From Planctomycetota bacterium (GTDB taxonomy: Bacteria; Planctomycetota; Planctomycetia; Gemmatales; Gemmataceae): a stretch of DNA of 64,000 nt. A program made the position numbers and the translations under genes. The stretch lies in assembly GCA_016177925.1 (NCBI GenBank), contig JACOUH010000032.1, forward strand, positions 1-64,000, read 5' to 3'. Positions 21,878-61,891 of this stretch are shown here, piece by piece. Each line of letters begins with the position of its first letter. Positions within the stretch are counted from its first letter, which is position 1. The notes below the pieces were generated by a model, which saw only the letters and a list, made by a program, of their open reading frames with translations, was not told where the DNA came from and ran no database searches.

Positions 21878-21939
21878 CGTCGAACGTCGAACACCCGACG
21901 AAATGCCGGCTTCGGGCGTTGGGTGTTCGACGTTCGACG
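21878..21939. repeat. 19-bp inverted repeat of TTCGACG words
   Basis: Arms 21878-21896 (CGTCGAACGTCGAACACCC) and 21921-21939 are perfect complements built from tandem GTCGAAC words. The word array continues into the last codons of bioD, which encode SNVER. The repeat therefore touches the coding end of a conserved gene. Confidence 0.8.
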
Positions 21940-21940
21940 G

Positions 21941-22633
21941 TCAACGTTCGACGTTCGACATCTGCCACCAGTCGACGGCGGCAACGGCGTCGGCGGCGCT
22001 TTCTCCCGTGGCGCCGTGCGGGACCACCGCCAGCAGGGGCACGGCGAGCCGGCGCCGCAACTCGTCCACGTTGGTCTCGTCGGCCGGCCCGCACGGCGGG
22101 ACCGTCTCGCTGACCACCACGCCCGCCAGCGGCAGGTTGCGCCCCGTCGCCACTTCAACGGCCATCAGCGTGTGGCCAAGGGTTCCCAGCGAGCGGCGTG
22201 CCACCAGCACCAGGGGCAGACCAAGTTCCCGGACGAGGTCGGCCACCGTCTCACGTTCGGTCAGTGGACAGAGGAGGCTACCGACGCCCTCGACCAGCAG
22301 CGCCGCTTCGGGGTGGGCACAAGTGCGGACAGCGGTCACGAGTTCAGACAGACTCAGCGACATCCCCGCCAGGCGGGCCGCCACGGGTGGCGCTGCCGGC
22401 GCCTTGAAGGACCACGGCGTCACGCGGTCCAGCTCCGCCTCCATGCCGGCCGCCGACGCCAGAAGCCACGTGTCCTCGCTGAGCCAGCGGCCGCCGGACC
22501 ATGCGGCGCCCGTCGCCACCGGCTTGCAGACACGGACCGGCCGCCCCTGTCGTCGCAGCAGCCGCGCTACCGCGGCCGTCACGACGGTCTTCCCGACGCT
22601 GGTGTCGGTGCCGGAAAAAAAAAGTCCCCTCAT
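21941..22633 (-). CDS. bioD: ATP-dependent dethiobiotin synthetase
   Basis: A 230-residue cytosolic enzyme forming dethiobiotin from diaminopelargonate, CO2 and ATP. The P-loop GTDTSVGKT is at residues 8-16. VCKPVATG carries the catalytic Lys region and VEGVGSLLCPL the substrate loop, where family members usually have EGAGG. Length is normal. No other biotin genes are in the window, so biotin synthesis must be scattered. The last residues (SNVER) come from an intergenic word repeat. AGGA precedes the ATG closely. Confidence 0.9.
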   Translation of the reverse strand: MRGLFFSGTDTSVGKTVVTAAVARLLRRQGRPVRVCKPVATGAAWSGGRWLSEDTWLLASAAGMEAELDRVTPWSFKAPAAPPVAARLAGMSLSLSELVTAVRTCAHPEAALLVEGVGSLLCPLTERETVADLVRELGLPLVLVARRSLGTLGHTLMAVEVATGRNLPLAGVVVSETVPPCGPADETNVDELRRRLAVPLLAVVPHGATGESAADAVAAVDWWQMSNVER

Positions 22634-22653
22634 GTTCCTATTGTAGATTGTAG

Positions 22654-22714
22654 ATTTCAGATTGCAGATTTGAAGAACGGCCCCTGGGTCTTCTTCAAAT
22701 CTGCAATCTGAAAT
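22654..22714. repeat. 23-bp inverted repeat overlapping the SAM hydrolase 3' end
   Basis: Arms 22654-22676 (ATTTCAGATTGCAGATTTGA and three more bases) and 22692-22714 are perfect complements around a 15-base loop. It is AT-rich, unlike its surroundings. The right arm overlaps the stop codon and last residues (FRLQI) of the SAM hydrolase gene. It lies between two leftward genes. Confidence 0.85.
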
Positions 22715-23640: not shown

Positions 23641-25500
23641 TCATGACTCCTCTCCTTTCCGAGCCGGCTGCGGCGTCCTTGTCGGGGTTTGGCGTTGGCG
23701 ATAAAATGCTGCGCGTGGGCAGCCTCCCCGGACCGTCTGCGAATCGGCAGAAGAAACGGTCACGAGCAATGGTTGATACCCGGTAGTGTAACGGTAGCAC
23801 AAGAGATTTTGGCTCTCTATGTCCAGGTTCAAATCCTGGCCGGGTAGTTTTCTCTCAGCAAGTCTCAGGCGGTCGCAATCCGCCTCAACCCCTGCGATTT
23901 TCAGGGTTTGCGACGGCTCGCCCGTAGAAGCGCTGTCCCCCCTGTCCGTCTCAGCCGCTCTCACCGAATCGCATGGAACCTCACGGCGCAGGTAAGCGGG
24001 CGGTAAGCCAGATACCGACTCGGTAGGTGATTTATCCTCCGTTCCGGTCGCCGCCAGGGCCTGGGCCTCGTCTGCCGGGCCAGCCGGCAAGAGCGCCGGC
24101 AGACCGTCGACGGCGCCGGCGAGGTCGTACAGCCGGGCGTGCGTGTAGACGTTCATCGTCAGGCGGATGTCGGAGTGCCGGGCCAGCTCCTGCGCCAGCT
24201 TGGGGCTGACGCCGCTCCGCTCCAAGAGGGTGATGTAGGAGTGCCGCAGCGCGTGGAAGTCAGCCACGCGCCCCGCCTCATCGCGGTAGGGGATGCCGGC
24301 CGCGGCGAGGTCCTGACGGAGCATCTCGGCCGCGTCCTTGTGCCAGACACCGGGCCAGACGGGGCTATGGGGCGGCCGGCCGGCCAGGTAGTGGCGCAGG
24401 GCCAAGACCACGTCCGGCGGGAGAGGCTGCACCGACTTCTTGCGGTTCTTGGAGTAGGCCGCGGCGACGGCAGCGGTGGGCGTGTCGTCGTCGAGGGCAA
24501 ACGACGACGGGCAGAGGCTGGCCAGCTCGGAGGCGCGGTAGCCCGTCGTCATCGCCACGGCGTACAGCATCATCCGATCACGGCCGGCCAGCTCCAGGAA
24601 GGGAGCCAGGCTCCGGCCGGCGGCGCCCAGCAGCGTTTGCAGCTCCGGCTCCGGCAGCGCCCGGCGCTCGTGTCTTTTGTCTGTCTCGGCGTTGAGACGG
24701 GAGAGGGACACCAGCCGGTCGCGGTCCGTCCGTTCCTTCTCCACCAGCCAGCGGGAGAACCCTTTGAGGGCGGTCAGGTAGCCGTTGCTGGTCGAGATGC
24801 CGATGCCGCGCAGGACGTGCTCTTGCAGCGCCTCGACCGTCGCCCGCGGGTAGCGGCGGGCCGGGCCGTTGCCCCTGGCGGCCAGCCCCTCGCGCCGCAT
24901 CAGGCGGGCCAGTCGGCCGGGGCGAACGCCGCCCAGCGCGGCCACCAGTTCGCGCGGGGTGAACCACTCCTGACCGGGGGACAGCGCGGGCCGGGGCGGG
25001 TCGCGCCGCAACCGATGCAGGAACTCGGACACCTTCTCCGCCGCCAGGTCGAGAAGGAAGACGAACCGGCAACCGTCGAGAATGGCACGGATGCGAGCGC
25101 AGGTCTTGCTGACGTGCTCGGGGCAGTTGCCCTCCGCTTCCAGGTAACGGCGGTAGTCGTCCAGGTGGTCGGTCAGCGGTCGCTTGCGGTGCGCCTCGAA
25201 GGGGTCGGCGATGCCAGCCCGCCCCAGCTCGACCTTCTTGACCAGCTCGGCGAGCAGCTGCTGCGCGGCCGTCTTGTCGGTGGACAGCGGCTCGCGGCGG
25301 ACGGTGCCGTCCGCGTCGCGGTACTCGCCGTACCACTTGGCGGAGAACAGGCGGATGCGGTCGCCCTTCTTCGTCAAGGGCGCGGTCGCCGTGCGGCCGT
25401 CGTCATCGGTGAAGCGGGCGTGCGGCTTGCCCTTGATGGTGACGATTTGGGCCCCTTCGGGGAGGGGCCGGGTGTACGGCTGTCGGAACAGTCTTGCCAT
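23641..25500 (-). CDS. Tyrosine recombinase (integrase) of the tRNA-Gln element
   Basis: A 619-residue site-specific recombinase in its integrated form. Catalytic set: Arg322 in TTGYRASELASL, His416/Arg419 in FHALRHSY, His442 in ARHSDIRL, nucleophile Tyr452 in MNVYTH. A core-binding domain (about 100-260) is interrupted by a helix-turn-helix (about 178-232, FTPRELVAALGGVRPGRLAR). The reading frame crosses the attachment repeat (residues 552-565, LPGQDLNLDIESQN), runs antisense through tRNA-Gln and ends in chromosomal DNA. In the excised circle the same frame would instead continue into 37,101-36,916, giving a 626-residue protein. Three bases separate it from the upstream XRE gene. Confidence 0.92.
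   Translation of the reverse strand: MARLFRQPYTRPLPEGAQIVTIKGKPHARFTDDDGRTATAPLTKKGDRIRLFSAKWYGEYRDADGTVRREPLSTDKTAAQQLLAELVKKVELGRAGIADPFEAHRKRPLTDHLDDYRRYLEAEGNCPEHVSKTCARIRAILDGCRFVFLLDLAAEKVSEFLHRLRRDPPRPALSPGQEWFTPRELVAALGGVRPGRLARLMRREGLAARGNGPARRYPRATVEALQEHVLRGIGISTSNGYLTALKGFSRWLVEKERTDRDRLVSLSRLNAETDKRHERRALPEPELQTLLGAAGRSLAPFLELAGRDRMMLYAVAMTTGYRASELASLCPSSFALDDDTPTAAVAAAYSKNRKKSVQPLPPDVVLALRHYLAGRPPHSPVWPGVWHKDAAEMLRQDLAAAGIPYRDEAGRVADFHALRHSYITLLERSGVSPKLAQELARHSDIRLTMNVYTHARLYDLAGAVDGLPALLPAGPADEAQALAATGTEDKSPTESVSGLPPAYLRREVPCDSVRAAETDRGDSASTGEPSQTLKIAGVEADCDRLRLAERKLPGQDLNLDIESQNLLCYRYTTGYQPLLVTVSSADSQTVRGGCPRAAFYRQRQTPTRTPQPARKGEES
23777..23847 (+). tRNA. tRNA-Gln (anticodon UUG)
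   Basis: A 71-base cloverleaf: acceptor TACCCGG/CCGGGTA, D arm GTGT/GCAC, anticodon stem AGAGA/TCTCT around loop TTTTGGC (anticodon TTG), T arm CCAGG/CCTGG around TTCAAAT, discriminator G; CCA is not encoded. The segment from the end of the anticodon stem to the discriminator (23806-23847) is the duplicated attachment core, so the 3' half was supplied by the integrated element while the gene stays intact. Confidence 0.95.
23806..23847. repeat. Attachment site repeat, left (within tRNA-Gln)
   Basis: A 42-bp segment identical to 37102-37143; it starts ATTTTGGCTCTCTATGTCCA and ends CCGGGTAG. It covers the anticodon loop, variable region, T arm and acceptor 3' strand. Flanks differ on both sides (G before, TTTT after). 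Confidence 0.95.
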
Positions 25501-28749: not shown

Positions 28750-29406
28750 TCATTGCCGCTTCGTCCCGGCTTGTGTGCCAAGCAACCGGATTACCTCCGG
28801 CTCGTGCGCCAGCAACTCCGCCCGCAAGGCGGCGGTGTCGGCGCTCTGGGGGTCGCGGGCGCAGAGGACCAGCTTGCCGTTCCGAACCGACAGGGCGCAA
28901 CCGAGGGCCTTGCAGCGCGCGAGCAGCTCGGCGGCCACGGAGGGCGGCGGGATGCGCCCGCCCGCCGCTTGCACCAGCGCCCGCAGTTCGACCACGTGTG
29001 CCCGGAGGGCCTCCACCAGCTCGTCAGGCCGATCTTTCGCCGCGTGGAACACCACCCCGCCATCCGCCGCGCTCGCCAGGACGTAGCCGCGCCCGCGGCA
29101 ATACTCCAGCAGCTCGGCGGCGGTCATGGCGTCCCAGGCCCGGCCGGGCGCGGCAACCGCCGCGCGTGCCCGGGCCAGCACGCGCCGCACTTGAGTTGCG
29201 GACCAGCGCTGGCCGGGGTATTCCGCACGAGTCTTGACCCCGCGGCGGTCCAGTTCGGCGGCGATCTGCCGGAGGGACCGCCCCGCACGGTGGAGTTGTA
29301 ACACAAGCTCAAGGAGCGGGGCGTAGAACTGGCGCGCAGCCTCGCGGTGGACGGGGGCGGACACCGCCCCGCCCTTCTTGTGAACGCCAGCAGGGAACCC
29401 GGGCAT
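28750..29406 (-). CDS. Recombinase-type HTH protein with TubC_N-like C-terminus
   Basis: A 218-residue protein. Residues about 25-80 (LLELVLQLHRAGRSLRQIAA, ELDRRGVKT, WSATQVRRVLAR) form the helix-turn-helix found behind the catalytic domain of large serine recombinases, but no catalytic domain is present. The C-terminus (AAELLARCKALGCALSVRNG, AALRAELLAHEPEVIRLL) resembles the TubC N-terminal docking module seen in mobile-element replication proteins. The ATG at 29406 is preferred over GTG 29415 because GAGG lies upstream. Probably DNA-binding. Its partner could be the next gene upstream, 18 bases away. Confidence 0.6.
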   Translation of the reverse strand: MPGFPAGVHKKGGAVSAPVHREAARQFYAPLLELVLQLHRAGRSLRQIAAELDRRGVKTRAEYPGQRWSATQVRRVLARARAAVAAPGRAWDAMTAAELLEYCRGRGYVLASAADGGVVFHAAKDRPDELVEALRAHVVELRALVQAAGGRIPPPSVAAELLARCKALGCALSVRNGKLVLCARDPQSADTAALRAELLAHEPEVIRLLGTQAGTKRQ

Positions 29407-29424
29407 GGTCAGCACCTCAAAAAG

Positions 29425-29781
29425 TCAGCTTGTGGTACAGCCGGACTGAGCAGCAGGGGCACCGTCTCCAGCGACGACTTCCTCGACAACACGCTGGCGG
29501 ACGTCGACGTCCGCCCTGAGCGTCGTGGCACTCAACCGGGGATGCTCGTAAGGGGCTGCGTCCTTGGCGATGGCCGCGGCCTTGTCCCAGCGGCGAGCCC
29601 TGACATGGATCTGCATGGCCTTGAGCATGACCTGGAGTGGCGTCAGGCCCTCCTGCGCCAGAGGGGACAGCACCTCGTCAACGGCAATCCTCCCTCGCTC
29701 GGCACGCGCCTTGCGAGCCCCCCGTGTGTCCTTGCTGCCCTTGGGCCGGCCAGCCCCCCTGCGTTTTCCGCCGCGCGGCAT
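29425..29781 (-). CDS. Small phage-type protein (terminase small subunit-like)
   Basis: A 118-residue basic protein opening MPRGGKRRGAGRPKGSKDTR, a GAGRPKG start very common in phage DNA-binding proteins. LTPLQVMLKAMQIHVRARRW and AAAIAKDAAPYEHPRLSATT match the PLxYML...RRxxMAxAAAPYxHPR pattern of small terminase-like proteins. No large terminase, portal or capsid gene is in the element, so it may help a satellite use a helper phage or act as a plain DNA-binding protein; both are speculation. Confidence 0.6.
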   Translation of the reverse strand: MPRGGKRRGAGRPKGSKDTRGARKARAERGRIAVDEVLSPLAQEGLTPLQVMLKAMQIHVRARRWDKAAAIAKDAAPYEHPRLSATTLRADVDVRQRVVEEVVAGDGAPAAQSGCTTS

Positions 29782-29850
29782 GTTGATTCTCGTTGATTTT
29801 CGTCAGCTTGTGATACAGCCGGACTGATCCGCCACCGTCCGGCGGTTCGT

Positions 29851-30330
29851 TCAAGGAACGCTGCTTGTTGCGGCGAGGGCCGCACGAACGGCCTTGGCGT
29901 CTTCCCGGGTCGCGCAGACGATCTCACGGACGGGTTCCTCGGGAGCATCCGGCGGCAACTGGCCGCGCAACACCAAGAGCTTGTCGACGGCAACACCAAG
30001 AGCCACGGCCAATTGCGGCAGGGTGGCCGCATCGATCTTATCGGGCATGGCGTCAACGAGCTGGTGAGCGATGGCTTCCAACTTCGCGTCGAGGGCCTGC
30101 ACCGCTTGCGGCAGAATCTCCGCCACACGCTCCGCCCTTTTTTTAGGTGCCGGATTGCTGCCCGTTTTTTCCGGCACCTGTCCGGCAGCCTGCTTTTGCT
30201 CCCGAATCCAGTCCTGAAGGGTCTGGCGCTTCACGCCACACTCGCGCACTGTCTTGGCAACGTTGCCCCCGTTGGCGACGAGCGCCGCCAAACAGGCGGC
30301 CCGTTCTTCATCCGCATGGTGTTTTGCCAC
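29851..30330 (-). CDS. HTH protein, phage/transposase-like
   Basis: A 159-residue protein. The N-terminal part (ACLAALVANGGNVAKTVREC, GVKRQTLQDWIREQ) is a helix-turn-helix like those of insertion-element orfA or small terminases. The helical C-terminus has no recognised motif (ILPQAVQALDAKLEAIAHQL). The GTG at 30330 has an AGGAG upstream; the frame stays open to 30603, where a TTG would add 91 residues of uncertain reality. It is divergent from the XRE gene at 30,734. Confidence 0.5.
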   Translation of the reverse strand: MAKHHADEERAACLAALVANGGNVAKTVRECGVKRQTLQDWIREQKQAAGQVPEKTGSNPAPKKRAERVAEILPQAVQALDAKLEAIAHQLVDAMPDKIDAATLPQLAVALGVAVDKLLVLRGQLPPDAPEEPVREIVCATREDAKAVRAALAATSSVP

Positions 30331-30663
30331 GGTGACACTCTCCTCTTGCTCGTCCGCGCGGTGTGCGCATGCCCCCATTGTACTCGGGCGTCTGTGTTCA
30401 GCCGTGGCGGCGCCCAGCAGCCCCGCCAGAGCACGCGCGGCCGGGGACAGGGCGGGAACACCCTTGCGGCGACGATCGCGCGTCCTGGCGCTCTTGGGTG
30501 CGTCCTCGAAAGTGAGGACCGTTCCCCAATCGCCGGCCGTGCCCCGCCGGAAGGACACCTCGACGCGGACGGCAAGGCCGCGGTCGGAATCGTCCAGCAG
30601 CAAGCCTGGTCGCGGTCTCAGCGCCGGGCCGCGACTGGTTTCCCCATCCCGGGTTTATACCAC

Positions 30664-31749: not shown

Positions 31750-32154
31750 TCACCGTCGACGATACCGAACGCCCCCAGTCAAGAGTCGTCGTGCCACATC
31801 CTCCCCAGCGGCCGGGTGCAAGCGCTGGAGCAGCGCCAGGAGCAAAGCGAACTCGCCAGCGTCCAGCTTGCCCTTCAGCCGGTTGCACCTGTCGCAGCAG
31901 GCGCGGAGGTTGTCGAGGGCATACGCGCCGCCGCGTGCTGTCGGCTTCGCATGGTCGAAGCGCAGCAAGGCGAGCGTCAGGGGCAACCGGCAGTAGCCGT
32001 AGACCAGCGCGGCGCGGGCCAGCTTCAGCAGCTCGTCAAGGTCGTAGCTCAGCGTGACGCCATCGGCCCGGGCGCGGCGGCGCTGGTCGTTGAAGATGCG
32101 GCGGCAGCGCTTCCGGAGCGCGGTTTCGGCGGGCAGCAGCACGGGCTTGCGCAT
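31750..32154 (-). CDS. HNH endonuclease
   Basis: A 134-residue nuclease: FDHAKPTARGGAYALDNLRA, CCDRCNRLKGKLDAGEF, the Asp-His, Asn and CxxC set of the zinc-containing HNH fold. The N-terminal part is basic and helical. The ATG at 32154 is chosen for AAGGGAG upstream. It lies 11 bases after a small gene and downstream of the primase-helicase, so it may be a packaging- or homing-type nuclease of the element. The target is unknown. Confidence 0.85.
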   Translation of the reverse strand: MRKPVLLPAETALRKRCRRIFNDQRRRARADGVTLSYDLDELLKLARAALVYGYCRLPLTLALLRFDHAKPTARGGAYALDNLRACCDRCNRLKGKLDAGEFALLLALLQRLHPAAGEDVARRLLTGGVRYRRR

Positions 32155-32165
32155 GGTCGCTCCCT

Positions 32166-32387
32166 TCACGCCGCGGGCCGGGGACGGTTCGGGTCGACGC
32201 CGGCGGGCAACACGCACACGTCGCGCATCTTGCCGCGGGCCGGGATGTCGAACACTTTGACACGGGCCTCCGCCTCGGTGTCGCCAGCGGCGACGGGCTC
32301 CCAGCGCCGCGACGGCGGTTCGCGCGTCCAGGCGACGAACCGCCCTGCTGGGGGCGTTGCCAGCCGGCCCTCATTCGGTCGGGTCAT
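32166..32387 (-). CDS. Small conserved hypothetical protein
   Basis: A 73-residue protein: RFVAWTREPPSRRWEPVAAG, DTEAEARVKVFDI, MRDVCVLPAGVDPNRP. The style suggests a compact soluble protein, and I recall similar companions of HNH or replication genes in planctomycete elements. No motif assigns a function. It sits between the primase-helicase and the HNH gene in the same direction; AGAGGG lies upstream. Confidence 0.5.
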   Translation of the reverse strand: MTRPNEGRLATPPAGRFVAWTREPPSRRWEPVAAGDTEAEARVKVFDIPARGKMRDVCVLPAGVDPNRPRPAA

Positions 32388-32429
32388 GGGTTGCCCTCTT
32401 CTTCCGTTCTGTTCCGAACCTTCCTCAGT

Positions 32430-32793
32430 GGACGGTTTGGACAGTGTGGACGGTCGTATCAGGAGGGGAGGGCGGTCAGAACGGACAACGACTATCGTCG
32501 GCTTCCCCCTCGTGTGCATTTCTTCTTCCGCTGGCGCCCCCTCCCCCTGTAGCCGACCGTCCGAACCGTCCGCAGACCGGGTTTTCCGCGGCGTTTGCGG
32601 ACGGTTCCCGCGGACGGTTGTGCGCACCGCGGCCGTTACCGTCCGCACAACCGTCCGCACAACCGTCCGCCGTTTCCGCGGATTCGCCACTTCCTGCGGA
32701 CGGTGCGGACGGTTGCAGGGAGGGGGAGAGGGTGTCCGCGCGCAAGTGCAACACTTCACGGTCGCGGACACCGGCCAGCGTCCGGCGGACGGT
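32430..32793. repeat. Array of twelve 7-mers ACCGTCC/GGACGGT (iteron-like)
   Basis: GGACGGT starts at 32430, 32448, 32599, 32612, 32698, 32707 and 32787, and the complement ACCGTCC at 32556, 32565, 32638, 32650 and 32662. The copies at 32638-32668 have an exact 12-base period (ACCGTCCGCACA). Copies come mostly in same-strand pairs or triplets that alternate direction. Chance would give well under one copy in this span. Most lie inside the 3' end of the primase-helicase gene and encode its low-complexity tail (ADGCADGCADGN); two lie just beyond its stop. A replication-origin role is inferred. Confidence 0.8.
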
Positions 32794-35709
32794 GTTCCGC
32801 TGCCGGGCATCCTCCCAACTTGCCAACAGGCCGCGTTCCTTCAGCCGTTTCCAGAGGGTCCGCGGCGAAACGGGTAGCCCCCCGCCCTGGTCGCGTGCCA
32901 ACTCTTGCGCGGACGCATGACTCGCTTGCGGCTCCAGGTACAAGTCGGCGCCGTCCACCCAGCCGACGCGCTCGCCCTGGGGTTGCCATTCGTCCCGGGC
33001 GTGCTCGCCGGTGCCCATCGTGCGCAACCTCCATCCCCACGCTTCGGGCCTGTCCAGCGCCCCGGGCTCTGCCCCGTCCGGGCCGGCAACGTGCGCCCGC
33101 CCCGAAGCCAGGGCCGCGGCCAGCAGGCGCAGGAAGAGGGCTGTGGGTTCGGCAGCCTGGACGTGTTCCGCCTGCGCCGCGGCCGCCTCCCGAAGCGCCT
33201 CCCAACCGCGGCGAGCCAGGGCGCCCCGCTCCGCGTCCGTGAGGGCGCCGGCTGCGCAAGCGAAGTCGAAGAAGAGCTTCAGCCCCAGCGTCACGTCGGC
33301 CACAATGCCCGGCGTGCGTGCCGATCCGCTGCCGGTCTGGGCGCGATCGCGGAGCGCTGTCCGCTCCCCGGGCAGCCGGCCGCACAGCTCGCCGTACTGC
33401 GGTGCCAGCCAACGGACGAAACCGGCCAGCGCCGCCGCATACTGGCCGGCAGCGGCGGCGTGCTGGTGGGGCGTCAGGCCGGTCAGCAGCACGTCGTCCG
33501 GCGACACTTCCAGCACGAGCATGCGGCCGCGGAGCGACTGGCCGGGCGGGGTATCCTCGCCGGTCGAGAGGATCAGCCCGCGCGGCGGCCGCGACGGACG
33601 CAAGCTCCCGTCAGCGCGCATCCGTTGCCGGCCAGCCCGGTTGCCCTGCGCTCGCAAGAGCCGGTCGGCGTCGCGCTCCAGCCGCTGCCGGTCCCCGACC
33701 GCGCCCGCGGGAGCCCAGTCGTCCACCACAAGAAGCGCGTCCTTGGCGGCGAACGCCAGCCCTTCCAGTGCGTTGGCCGTCGAGGACCAACCGGCGGGCA
33801 GGTGCCGCGCGTCCAGGCCGGCGCCGTAGTGCTGCTGAGCGAGGGCCGCCAGCTCGCTTTTGCCGGCGCTGTGTGGGCCGGCCAGGAACAACGACAGGTC
33901 GATGGCGCCCGGGGCCTCGCCCAACGCCGCGCGGTAGACGGCCCCCACCAGCGGGAAGACGAGGCGGTCGGGTGCCAGACCGTCCAGAAGGGCCAGACTC
34001 GCCTGCAAGTAGTGCCAGCTACCGGCGATCTCGCGCCAGCCCGTATGGGCGTAGACGGTCCGCCGCGCCCGATCCTCCGAGAGCAGTTCGAGGGCGGCGC
34101 GGAGATGGTCGCGCGTGCCCTGCCCGGCGTAGACGACGGCCTCGCCGTGCCAGGCGGTCGTAACCCAGCCCAGCCCGGCGAAGTCGGCCGCGGGTACTTG
34201 GACAGCGGGCAACTCCCGGCCGTCCGCCAAGGCGCCGGCCAGCGCGAAGAAGGCGGTTTGCTCGGCGCCGTCGTCGCGCACGACTACCTCGGTAATCCGC
34301 GCGGTGAAGTTGCAGAGCGGGATAGTAGCCAATCCGCCGTCGTGCGTGGATACCTCGCGCACGATGCGCCCGTTGTCGATGCAGTAGCCGGCTTCGTTCA
34401 GCAGCACGGGCGGCCGCTCCTGCGCCTGTTCGCGCAGGAAGGGCTTCAAGGCGGCGTCGAGGTCGCGCAGGGACACCAGCCCTTTGAGGACGGCGCGGCG
34501 AGCGGCAAAGCCAGCAGGATTCGCGGTCTTCAGACGGGCCAGCGCTTCGAGCAGCGGCTTGTCGTTGAATAGGGCGGCAGCGCCTCCGGCGGCCAGCACG
34601 TCGGGCAGACGGTCCAGCGGACTCGGCTCTTGCGGCAGCTCACCAGCTGTCGCCGCGGCGACGGCCTCGCCGATCGCGACCCGCGCCGCCTCGCCGGTCA
34701 AGACCGCCGGCGCCTTGCCGGCAGCAAGCAGGTCGTCAATCCCCTTGCCGTCGGACAGCTCCCAGCGCTCCAGCTCGACGGCCAGACCAGCGGCGCCCGC
34801 GGCCTCGGCACAGGCCGACAGCGCGCGGGCCACGGTCGGCTTGTCGAGGGCGTCGGCGTCGAGGGCGAGCCGCACGGTCTGGCAACCCAACTCGTGCAGC
34901 ACGTCGAGGGCCGGGCGCCAGGCCAGCCCGGCGGCGCCGATCGTGGGCAGTCCGGACAGTGCGAAAGCGATGTCCGCCTTGAGGGCTCCTTCAGTCAGCC
35001 GGCAGGTAGGGCAGGGGCCGGCCACGCCGAAGGGGACGTGAACCGGGGCGCCGGGGCCGGGGCCTCCGTGTTTCACACTCGACAGGTAGGAGTATTTGCC
35101 CTCGGCGCCCTTGGCGTCGTCCCGCCGCGAGAGCAAAGCAACGATGCGGCCGGCCAGGTCGCGGACCGGCACCAGCAGCCCCGCAGCGCCGGCGATGGTG
35201 AGATAGGGCCGGCCGCCCTCGCCCTGCTTGGTGACGAAGCCAGGAACCGACAAGAGGTTGTCGCCCGGCTGACCTGCCTCGCCGGCGATGTGCGCGAACA
35301 CGTCGCGGGCCACTGCAGCGCGGCCGCGGACGGGCAGGGTGCGGTAGCTGCGGCGGTCCATCTCATCATCGCTCAGGCCGCGCTGGCGAAGTGCCTCGCG
35401 GTGCGCCTTGGAGAGCGCCAGCCGCGCCAAGAGGGCGGAATAGGCGCGGTGCAGCAAGTCGGGGGCGGCCCGTGGGGCTTCCGGGCCGGGCGGCCGCGGG
35501 GGCGGCGGTGGGGCGGGCCGGTCGGCGCCGGCGAGGCGGTGCAGGTGGTAGGGCACGCCGTCCCGATCCGTCTTGGAGCGCCAACATCCTTCTTCGACGC
35601 GCATGCACTTGGCGAGGGCGCCGTCGGCGGAGAGGCTGCACCAGTCCGCATGTTTGCAGATAGGGCAAGGGGCAGACTTGGAGACGCGCTGCCAACGATG
35701 ACTTGCCAT
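32476..35709 (-). CDS. Primase-helicase (zinc finger, TOPRIM, P-loop ATPase)
   Basis: A 1077-residue replication protein of the element. Residues 15-35 hold four cysteines (CPICKHADWC onward) like a primase zinc finger. About 235-330 resembles TOPRIM (RLTEGALKADIAFALSG with the Glu, LALDADALDK with the Asp pair), as in DUF3854-type proteins. About 430-800 is a DUF927-like/superfamily 3 helicase: Walker A GPHSAGKSEL at 611, Walker B DALLVVDDWAP at about 657. The last 70 residues are low-complexity and encoded by the 7-mer array. AAGGGA precedes the ATG. It is expected to start autonomous replication of the excised circle. Confidence 0.8.
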   Translation of the reverse strand: MASHRWQRVSKSAPCPICKHADWCSLSADGALAKCMRVEEGCWRSKTDRDGVPYHLHRLAGADRPAPPPPPRPPGPEAPRAAPDLLHRAYSALLARLALSKAHREALRQRGLSDDEMDRRSYRTLPVRGRAAVARDVFAHIAGEAGQPGDNLLSVPGFVTKQGEGGRPYLTIAGAAGLLVPVRDLAGRIVALLSRRDDAKGAEGKYSYLSSVKHGGPGPGAPVHVPFGVAGPCPTCRLTEGALKADIAFALSGLPTIGAAGLAWRPALDVLHELGCQTVRLALDADALDKPTVARALSACAEAAGAAGLAVELERWELSDGKGIDDLLAAGKAPAVLTGEAARVAIGEAVAAATAGELPQEPSPLDRLPDVLAAGGAAALFNDKPLLEALARLKTANPAGFAARRAVLKGLVSLRDLDAALKPFLREQAQERPPVLLNEAGYCIDNGRIVREVSTHDGGLATIPLCNFTARITEVVVRDDGAEQTAFFALAGALADGRELPAVQVPAADFAGLGWVTTAWHGEAVVYAGQGTRDHLRAALELLSEDRARRTVYAHTGWREIAGSWHYLQASLALLDGLAPDRLVFPLVGAVYRAALGEAPGAIDLSLFLAGPHSAGKSELAALAQQHYGAGLDARHLPAGWSSTANALEGLAFAAKDALLVVDDWAPAGAVGDRQRLERDADRLLRAQGNRAGRQRMRADGSLRPSRPPRGLILSTGEDTPPGQSLRGRMLVLEVSPDDVLLTGLTPHQHAAAAGQYAAALAGFVRWLAPQYGELCGRLPGERTALRDRAQTGSGSARTPGIVADVTLGLKLFFDFACAAGALTDAERGALARRGWEALREAAAAQAEHVQAAEPTALFLRLLAAALASGRAHVAGPDGAEPGALDRPEAWGWRLRTMGTGEHARDEWQPQGERVGWVDGADLYLEPQASHASAQELARDQGGGLPVSPRTLWKRLKERGLLASWEDARQRNTVRRTLAGVRDREVLHLRADTLSPSLQPSAPSAGSGESAETADGCADGCADGNGRGAHNRPREPSANAAENPVCGRFGRSATGGGGASGRRNAHEGEADDSRCPF

Positions 35710-35785: not shown

Positions 35786-36103
35786 TCAGCGCCGCGACGC
35801 CTCCAGCGCCTGCCACGCCTTCCGATCCGGACAACCTGCCTGCACCCAGCGCTTCAGTTCGGCGACGCGCCAGCGCGTGCTGTGCCCCAGCCGGACGGGG
35901 GAGGGTGTCTTGCCGGCTGCGACGAGACGCCACCAGGTCGCCTCGCTGACGCCGCACAGCCGGGCGGCCTCCGGGGCGGGGACCAGCAGGGGCTCGGGGG
36001 CCGGGGCCGGGACCGGCGGCGGGCCGGTAGCCGTAGCTGGCGGATCGGCTGGGACCGGGGCGGCGCCGTTCGCGGTGATAGGCGGGCGGTCAGTCGGCGG
36101 CAT
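35786..36103 (-). CDS. Excisionase-like HTH protein (AlpA/MerR type)
   Basis: A 105-residue protein. The first 45 residues are Pro/Ala-rich; then comes a winged helix LLVPAPEAARLCGVSEATWW, RLVAAGKTPSPVRLGHSTRW, RVAELKRWVQAGCP, the pattern of phage excisionases and AlpA-type regulators. It starts inside the end of the preceding small gene (14-base overlap) and lies upstream of the primase-helicase. A role as the recombination directionality factor for the integrase is likely but unproven. Confidence 0.78.
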   Translation of the reverse strand: MPPTDRPPITANGAAPVPADPPATATGPPPVPAPAPEPLLVPAPEAARLCGVSEATWWRLVAAGKTPSPVRLGHSTRWRVAELKRWVQAGCPDRKAWQALEASRR

Positions 36104-36366: not shown

Positions 36367-36780
36367 CTACTCGGCGGGAAGTGAGGCGAACAACCGCAGT
36401 CCCTCGGCGGTGACGGTGTGGCCTTTCCGCTTACCGCGCGGCTGGTGTGCCAAACCCGCGCTGCGCAAATAGGAGAGGCGCGGGCCGATGGTGCGCCGCG
36501 AGAACCCGGTTGTCGTTTCCAGGTCGTACTGGCTCACGGTTCGCGGATGCGACGCGGCGAGTGCGCGAAGGAGAGCAACGTCTTCGCGGGTGAGGGCGAG
36601 GTCGCCCGTTGCCGGGGCGGCTGGTGGCGTTGACGGGGAGGGCGCCGGCGTATCCTTCTGCTGGACGCCGCCCGCGGCGTCGCGGGCCAGCCACCGATGC
36701 AACCGATCGTACTTCTGCTTCGCCAACTCGCGCTTCCGGGTCGAGGCGGGGGGGTCGAAAAACGGCGGAGCGCCGGCCAT
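36367..36780 (-). CDS. Winged-helix DNA-binding protein
   Basis: A 137-residue protein. A basic N-terminal half (STRKRELAKQKYDRLHRWLA) and a Pro-rich linker precede a winged helix: LTREDVALLRALAASHPRTV, SQYDLETTTGFSRRTIGPRL, SYLRSAGLAHQPRGKRKGHT. The ATG at 36780 has AAGGA upstream; the frame extends further without support. It is the first gene of the leftward unit leading to the primase-helicase and probably its regulator. Confidence 0.7.
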   Translation of the reverse strand: MAGAPPFFDPPASTRKRELAKQKYDRLHRWLARDAAGGVQQKDTPAPSPSTPPAAPATGDLALTREDVALLRALAASHPRTVSQYDLETTTGFSRRTIGPRLSYLRSAGLAHQPRGKRKGHTVTAEGLRLFASLPAE

Positions 36781-36915
36781 GAGACGGGTTCCTTTCGAGA
36801 ACGGCCGCGGCCGCCCCTGCAGGTTCTCGAACGGCAAGAGCGGACGCGCGGCCAAAGGACACGTTCAGCTTATCCGGCGCTTGAGGCGCGGTCCAACCCG
36901 GCCAGCTGCCGGGCC

Positions 36916-37101
36916 TCACCCGCCCGCCGCCTCGACGAGAGCGACGATGCCGCGGCGGATCACTTCCGATAGACTTTCCCAGGCGGCACAGACGCGGGCA
37001 AGATCGGGGTCGGCAGGGGCGCAGGTAAGCGGAGCGGTAAGCGGGTCAGTGCGTTCGCCGGAAGTGTTGTCGGGCAAGGACTTGCGTTCTGCACCGAAGG
37101 C
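36916..37101 (-). other. Detached native C-terminal tail of the integrase frame
   Basis: 61 codons plus a TGA in exactly the frame that continues the integrase across the attachment repeat. The encoded tail starts AFGAERKSLPDNTSGERTDP and ends DLARVCAAWESLSEVIRRGI followed by VALVEAAGG, which I recall as the usual end of related planctomycete integrases. In the integrated state no integrase start lies upstream, so it is silent; in the excised circle it joins residue 565 of the integrase. Confidence 0.88.
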
Positions 37102-37143
37102 ATTTTGGCTCTCTATGTCCAGGTTCAAATCCTGGCCGGGTAG
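37102..37143. repeat. Attachment site repeat, right (3' tRNA fragment)
   Basis: Identical over 42 bp to 23806-23847. Here it lacks the 5' half of the tRNA, so it is the displaced original 3' end and marks the element boundary. Flanks: C before, CTGACAT after. Confidence 0.95.
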
Positions 37144-60278: not shown

Positions 60279-60343
60279 GTCCGTGGTCCGTGCTCCGTGG
60301 TCCGTGGCAATGACTTTCTTGCAACGGACCACGGACCACGGAC
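60279..60343. repeat. Imperfect inverted repeat of GTCCGTG words
   Basis: Tandem GTCCGTG units (60279-60310) face tandem CACGGAC units (60319-60343) with two mismatches. It lies between the platform gene and the first pseudopilin gene. Confidence 0.75.
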
Positions 60344-60358
60344 AACGAACGAACCCGG

Positions 60359-61616: not shown

Positions 61617-61891
61617 CGGCTGTCGGCTATCGGCTATGCTGGACGTGGCGACGGGGCGTCCCCGCGCTGGCGCTTGGGGCTTGTGTCGGCGTCCCCGCGC
61701 TGGCGCTTGGGGCTTGGGTCAACTCTCCCCGCGTTGAGGCTCTCGGCTGTCGGCTATCGACTGTCGGCCGGGGGTCAGCGGTCAGACGAGGCTTACGATG
61801 AAATTGCGGGCGACCCAATGATAAGGTATTCCCCGCTGACCGCTGACCTCCAGTCGACGGCCGATGGCCGATGGCCGATAGCCGATAGCCG
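61617..61891. repeat. Nested imperfect inverted repeats of GGCTATC/GATAGCC words
   Basis: CGGCTGTCGGCTATCGGCTA (61617 on) faces GATAGCC words ending at 61891, with GCTGGCGCTTGGGGCTT tandemly repeated inside and TCAGCGGTCAG/CTGACCGCTGA as a second layer. It fills the gap between the ATPase and platform genes and ends three bases from the ATPase stop. Confidence 0.75.

Follow-up and report, generated by a model that had tools for sequence, protein, structure and literature searches.

A candidate replication origin nested in the 3' end of the initiator gene of a planctomycete integrative element

The element and its replication gene

The stretch of DNA analysed here (the window) is 64,000 nucleotides long and belongs to a planctomycete of the family Gemmataceae. 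Judged from its sequence, the region from a tRNA-Gln gene (ttg; 23777-23847, plus strand) to a 47-nt repeat of the tRNA 3' part is an integrative element of 13.3 kb, which presumably excises. The repeat marks the ends of the element at two proposed att sites: (i) the 3' part of the tRNA gene itself, 23801-23847, and (ii) its 96% identical copy at 37097-37143 (plus strand). A tyrosine integrase is encoded on the strand opposite the tRNA, by an ORF (23641-25500, minus strand) that reads through the tRNA/att end. The minus strand also carries an HNH endonuclease (31750-32217), an HTH_17 protein that is weakly AlpA/excisionase-like, upstream of the replication gene (35789-36103), and a possible winged-helix regulator, both Pfam matches of which lie below cut-off (36370-36855). 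On the question of a PICI-like phage satellite, the element offers the integrase, the att-like repeat and the AlpA/excisionase-like protein; the replication gene itself matches no NCBIfam or PHROG family model. A search against Rfam returned the tRNA only. Also inside the element (28750-30603, minus strand) are a fragment of a serine-recombinase domain and, close to it, a transposase-like HTH, which suggest a decayed second recombination module.

The replication gene, rep (32476-35709, minus strand), encodes a putative initiator of 1077 residues, Rep, in which an N-terminal DUF3854 (TOPRIM-like) part is joined to a DUF927 MCM-like helicase. Both profile matches stand exactly at threshold: DUF927 (PF06048) scores 22.6 bits for a cut-off of 22.6, a weak match that is backed by the fold, and DUF3854 scores 23 bits, again equal to its cut-off. 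An alignment profile built from 15 Rep relatives (A1) finds DnaG chains at E 7e-5 and, only weakly, the chains of Cch (E 0.16) and SaPIbov1 Rep (E 0.19). The primase part, a label resting on this weak TOPRIM/DnaG profile match, is putative.

An AlphaFold2 model of Rep residues 440-1077 has a mean pLDDT of 85.5. Over the whole ordered part, its best fold matches are Cch (5dgk) and SaPIbov1 Rep (8tch), followed by archaeal and eukaryotic MCM helicases; for the helicase region, Foldseek gives E values of 9.8e-12 (Cch) and 1.7e-11 (SaPIbov1 Rep). The superposition on Cch reaches Z 19.2 over 436 residues (model 1-562) at a large rmsd of 12.2 Å, and that on SaPIbov1 Rep reaches Z 17.1 over 435 residues (model 1-560) at a similarly large 11.1 Å. 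Such model-based matches indicate kinship of shape, not of function. The predicted C-terminal winged-helix domain (about residues 907-1005; coding part 32695-32991, minus strand), modelled alone, has a pLDDT of 91. Its closest single-domain fold match is TcpK (Z 8.1), and the C-terminus of SaPIbov1 Rep ranks third, as a moderate match (Z 6.7, 3.0 Å, 77 residues) with a Foldseek E of only 0.034. Beyond this domain runs a tail (model residues 565-638; coding part 32479-32700, minus strand) with pLDDT below 50, and thus predicted to be disordered. A plasmid search also found proteins of Rhodococcus plasmids that are distantly related to the helicase core and carry the annotation of telomere-binding proteins.

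The word array at the end of rep

The 7-base word ACCGTCC, or its complement GGACGGT, occurs exactly 12 times between 32430 and 32793 (364 bases), as a word search of the window shows. The initial annotation had reported 12 words in this interval, at the 3' end of the replication gene and just past its stop; the recount agrees, with ten words inside the rep ORF and two beyond the stop (32430 and 32448). Between these last two lies a one-mismatch word, GGACAGT, at 32439. Enrichment is strong: the whole window holds 31 copies against 13.9 in shuffles, from which about 0.08 copies would be expected per 364 bases. The densest 300 bases near the rep stop (1200 bases examined) contain 11 copies of the word. 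For any 7-mer, 100 dinucleotide shuffles give at most 5 copies in such a stretch, and the 101 other tiles of the window at most 6.

Same-strand pairs and triplets of alternating orientation had been described from the letters, and they resolve into five blocks and a single word. In the orientation of the gene, outer block 1 (32698-32713, minus strand) is a direct pair at spacing 9 (32707/32698; GGACGGT on the plus strand), inner block 2 (32638-32668, plus strand) an ACCGTCC triplet at 12/12 (32662/32650/32638), inner block 3 (32599-32618, minus strand) a direct pair at spacing 13 (32612/32599) and outer block 4 (32556-32571, plus strand) a direct pair at spacing 9 (32565/32556). These four blocks lie inside the rep ORF and overlap the part that encodes the disordered tail. 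Block 5 (32430-32454, minus strand) is a 9/9 triplet just past the stop, with the degenerate word in the middle. The order of spacings is thus 9, 12/12, 13, 9 and then 9/9 after the stop, and a lone outlying word (32787-32793, minus strand) falls in the coding part of the winged helix. The 12-base period proposed earlier survives as the one triplet at 12/12; overall, 9 is the most frequent spacing.

In the rest of the genome, close pairs form a cluster only at the one other rep copy (contig C305), whose surroundings yielded no tRNA and no credible att repeat as boundaries of a second element. Genome-wide there are 15 matches, the other seven being lone pairs, and 19 matches to a reversed control pattern. 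The window array has the same AT content as its locus (0.33), and the AT-richest 40 bases within 200 bases of it reach 0.45; by this comparison there is no AT-rich melting block in or near the array. A scan of the array region found no terminator, and a scan of 32000-33200 for the sigma-70 consensus alone found no promoter-like site. The window also contains short tandem arrays of 7-base units at 21925-21959, 22640-22670, 60279-60347 and 61738-61891. Heptamer repeats are a separate background feature, because other tiles that pass the array tests described below show mostly spacings of 7 and 14.

Homologous genes: a changing word with a constant spacing

Relatives of rep were collected in a discovery set and in a second set, drawn from named genomes and IMG/VR. 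The window Rep as a single tblastn query found no relative in the first scan of genome contigs, and an alignment query was used afterwards. Eight of 85 loci with the gene running off the contig end were dropped before counting, as was L082. The reading frame at the gene end was taken in the second set as the longest open one, so that some stops in frameshifted assemblies may be wrong. A stretch from -450 to +600 around the rep stop passes the strict test if, inside 350 bases, some 6-mer forms direct pairs at spacing 7-14 in both orientations, one or more in each. In the discovery set 16 of 29 genes pass (shuffles 36/5800; other tiles 20/618), and in the second set 29 of 77 (shuffles 51/7700; other tiles 32/1140), or 26 of 69 new distinct genes after removal of eight duplicates of the first set. 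Because the limits of the region were chosen after the first examples had been seen, an independent test is provided by the second set alone. Combined, 42 of 98 distinct rep 3' ends pass, compared with 0.7% of shuffles and 3% of other stretches. The carriers in the second set include Planctomycetota, Acidobacteriota, Armatimonadota, Chloroflexi, Bacillota and Proteobacteria, among others.

The remaining 56 of the 98 genes fail the strict test, four of them in the subfamily of the window (L043, L085, L087 and L089). Some failures have clusters that the test does not count (for example L154), some have uncertain stops in fragmented assemblies, and some array-less rep genes may be dead copies. 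The distant Reps on two faecal phage scaffolds have no array. The second rep of the same genome, the paralogue L019, is 58-62% identical, shares the core of the word, has four blocks of its own and lies near a serine recombinase. In other genomes the words at the gene ends are different ones: ATCGTCA, GCGACAC, CCGTGAC, CCCGACC, ACCGGGA (the word of L091), CCGGGAC and GGGGTGA. An integrase was found alongside rep in 7 of 97 loci, a count from one tblastn query that says little, integrases being diverse and the flanks short.

Related elements of several phyla keep the spacing pattern while their words differ. With spacings of 7-20 allowed, 31 of the 98 genes have at least three pairs, as against 13 of 1625 other tiles (the upstream side of rep included); the spacings in those 13 are mostly 7 and 14. 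These 31 loci contain 143 word spacings, of which 79 are exactly 9 and 26 fall at 12-13. Spacing 9 is frequent both in coding arrays (45/72) and in non-coding ones (34/70), and rare in shuffles (11/136). The full layout of four blocks, with spacing 9 in the outer blocks and 12-13 in the inner ones, is present in seven of the 98 genes (the window, L019, L091, L092, L108, L110 and L116), from Planctomycetota, Acidobacteriota and Armatimonadetes; its inner core appears in none of 4900 shuffles. From start to start, the inner blocks are 43-44 bases apart in five of the seven, 39 in L091 and 49 in the window, where the triplet permits other choices.

This layout bears on the suggestion that a folded stem-loop serves as the origin, in the manner of pRN1 plasmids, with the words mattering only as makers of stems. 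On either strand the window array does fold much more stably than its shuffles (z -5.5 and -6.2), as do those of L019, L091 and L116, and the part of PMC4234260 that treats the pRN1 origin describes a stem-loop 3' of rep that is required and whose structure, not sequence, is conserved. The inner arms, spacers included, nevertheless pair nearly perfectly in only two of the seven four-block loci (L091 and L116, 25/27); elsewhere the pairing is 14/26 in the window and L108, 20/26 in L019, 19/27 in L092 and 20/27 in L110. What persists is the spacing of the words, and many arrays have triplets or same-orientation pairs for which stems have no need. A purely structural origin is accordingly an improbable account.

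A second question is whether the DNA or the peptide is under selection. The repeats could in principle arise secondarily, from a tail that is repetitive and of low complexity or from GC-rich composition, given that ten of the 12 words lie in coding sequence and that the tail is indeed of low complexity. The words, however, lie on both strands and in several codon phases, so that the peptide is not the repeating unit, and 13-base steps break the frame. Relative to the rep stop, 13 of the 31 arrays are wholly coding, six span the stop and 12 lie wholly after it, and dinucleotide-preserving shuffles rarely yield arrays; an origin of the repeats in tail or composition can hardly be credited. In 13 of 16 coding arrays a word of one orientation occurs in more than one codon phase; together with the predicted disorder of the encoded tail, this identifies the DNA as the selected level. 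The initial annotation had made the same suggestion from the window, and the homologues bear it out: the tail has no conserved sequence in the alignment of Rep relatives, and at the rep 3' end an array persists in which the word differs and the spacing is retained.

Word and winged helix were compared across 32 of the 42 loci with a word. Ten were left out beforehand: L045, L047, L048, L050, L052, L078, L079, L080 and L081, whose proteins are distantly or partly related to the A1 alignment, and L122, by the analyst's choice. Word distance rises with winged-helix distance, a small effect (rho 0.27, p 0.001), and 0.20 remains when helicase distance is removed (permutation p 0.0015); given the winged helix, helicase divergence adds 0.07.

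Two features of the gene end bear on why the reading frame runs through the array. Rep ends in EADDSRCPF (32479-32505, minus strand), which resembles the tip of single-stranded DNA-binding protein (SSB); the host SSB ends in QEDEIPF. If three or more acidic residues among the final ten, with F, L, I or V as the last residue, are taken to define such an end, it occurs in 16 of 98 Reps and in one of 603 other ORFs of the same loci, and PF ends in 6/98 and 0/603, both counts ignoring kinship among Reps. Examples are DEDIPF, NDEDLPF and DDNGLPF (gene ends of L127, L130, L109, L100, L090 and L135). Against a general rule, L019 ends in GEGKHR and the majority of Reps have no tip. SSB-tip-like ends of Rep might recruit partners of the host SSB. 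The second feature is overlap with the next gene: with ATG and GTG starts counted, eight of 18 coding-array genes have a next ORF that starts on the rep stop, as does one of 13 with the array after the stop; with ATG alone, as in the control, the count is 6 of 18 against 54 of 890. This suggests translational coupling, which does not explain the window, because its next ORF begins about 88 bases past the rep stop. Downstream of the array, the window has a small ORF of 73 residues (32166-32387, minus strand), which on inspection by eye resembles the one overlapping the rep stop of L019. In L088, L092, L095, L102, L112, L116 and L125, a small protein that recurs among the loci has its start on the rep stop; by eye, the beginning of this protein is like the TubC_N docking domain, which has a Pfam match in the window at 28750-29415.

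The overlaps place the array inside an operon in the eight coding-array loci that have them, as would suit a Rep-binding control site (for autoregulation, copy control or incompatibility) with the true origin elsewhere in the element. Bound iterons can act as control sites, and P4 crr is an example of a site of this kind. Arrays nevertheless track the 3' end of rep, other tiles rarely pass, the scan for the sigma-70 consensus alone leaves the window array without a promoter-like site, and the dyad layout and the SaPI precedent point to the loading of a helicase. A control function is therefore unlikely, if the least unlikely of the alternatives.

A probable origin read by its own initiator

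It is probable, on sequence, structural models and analogy, that the array serves the 13.3-kb element as its replication origin, lying within the 3' end of the initiator gene whose product would read it. In kind it is best taken as an iteron origin of the SaPI/SCC type, on which Rep would load via the winged-helix domain. The assignment as an origin draws on the published precedent of SaPI and other PICI elements, whose origins consist of iterons directly 3' of rep, read by the C-terminal domain of the protein (as far as the relevant parts of PMC7581432 and PMC6092414 describe them). The initial reading as a nested origin is thus supported by the comparison of homologues and by the kinship with SaPIbov1 Rep and Cch, and the array stands as a candidate origin.

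In the proposed mechanism, Rep would act as an MCM-like (DUF927) helicase that loads itself; it has a TOPRIM-like part at the N-terminus, and its C-terminal winged helix would read one word of 7-9 bases. Alternating pairs and triplets at 9 and 12-13 about a dyad may seat two oppositely facing Rep hexamers, which would melt the DNA and unwind it outwards once the element has excised. Melting in a region with no AT-rich block may rely on the helicase itself. The words would be maintained as DNA sites, and the protein stretch that they encode would serve as a flexible linker.

The closest relatives in design are the staphylococcal systems. SaPI/PICI elements (SaPIbov1 Rep) share the DUF927-type, MCM-like self-loading helicase and the short iterons at the rep 3' end (PMC7581432 and PMC6092414), the first of these papers placing SaPI origins directly downstream of rep. 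They differ in four respects: (i) the window array lies largely inside coding sequence, and its Rep has an N-terminal TOPRIM-like part, (ii) PICI origins are two sets of iterons flanking an AT-rich region, whereas the window array has no such block, (iii) the hosts here are planctomycetes and members of other phyla, and (iv) the words here stand at steps of 9 and 12-13 bases about a dyad. For SCCmec, the protein Cch is the best fold match of Rep. The C-terminal domain of Cch2 binds direct repeats downstream of its operon, a site described in that section of PMC7581432 as three 5-nt iterons downstream of the gene, compared with up to 12 words, mostly within the gene, in the present case.

Two further systems have their origin in or beside the initiator gene. 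Lambda O is not a helicase. The iterons for this initiator sit inside the O gene, at ori-lambda, and provide a precedent for nesting; in the part of PMC7466680 that describes them, there are four in mid-gene, flanked by an AT-rich region. In pRN1 the origin lies directly 3' of a rep gene for a primase-helicase-winged-helix protein and keeps its position while its sequence changes, according to the same part of PMC4234260; it needs a stem-loop, whereas the arrays described here keep word spacing and not stem pairing.

The fold match between the winged helix and TcpK, an oriT-binding protein of pCW3, raises the alternative that the array is a site for partition, transfer (oriT-like) or accessory recombination, read by another protein. 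TcpK binds tandem 9-nt boxes 3 nt apart, a period of 12, through its wing (in the relevant part of PMC6137059). It is a protein of transfer, not replication, and carries no helicase fusion. The ORFs of the element that were scanned include no recognised gene for partition or for a relaxase, and the array follows rep despite differing recombinases (tyrosine in the window, serine in L019). This alternative is very improbable beside an origin read by Rep.

A broader generalisation is more tentative, and rather doubtful as a whole. Rep-nested origins may form a widespread, as yet undescribed class and share a word-independent code (outer spacing 9, inner spacing 12-13, dyad centre of 20-25 bases), with one winged helix per word seating a double hexamer of the self-loading helicase. 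The frame might then be kept open through the origin for an acidic, SSB-tip-like end, an overlap with the start of the next gene or both, and gene and origin would form an inseparable module in which word and reader co-evolve towards new specificities.

Relative to the known SaPI/SCC kind, what is new is the coding position, the spacing rule and the absence of an AT-rich block. Within the open-access literature we found no description of such arrays at DUF927 genes outside staphylococci, and absence from print is not claimed. The candidate origin would carry replication modules of the SaPI/SCC type beyond staphylococci, to integrative elements in planctomycetes and in several further phyla. 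The homologues offer dozens of candidate natural pairs of word and reader with a fixed spacing rule, which opens two questions to experiment: what positions a self-loading MCM-like helicase on the duplex DNA of an origin, and by what route origins acquire new specificities. The arrangement may also serve as a sequence signature for locating the origins of otherwise anonymous elements.
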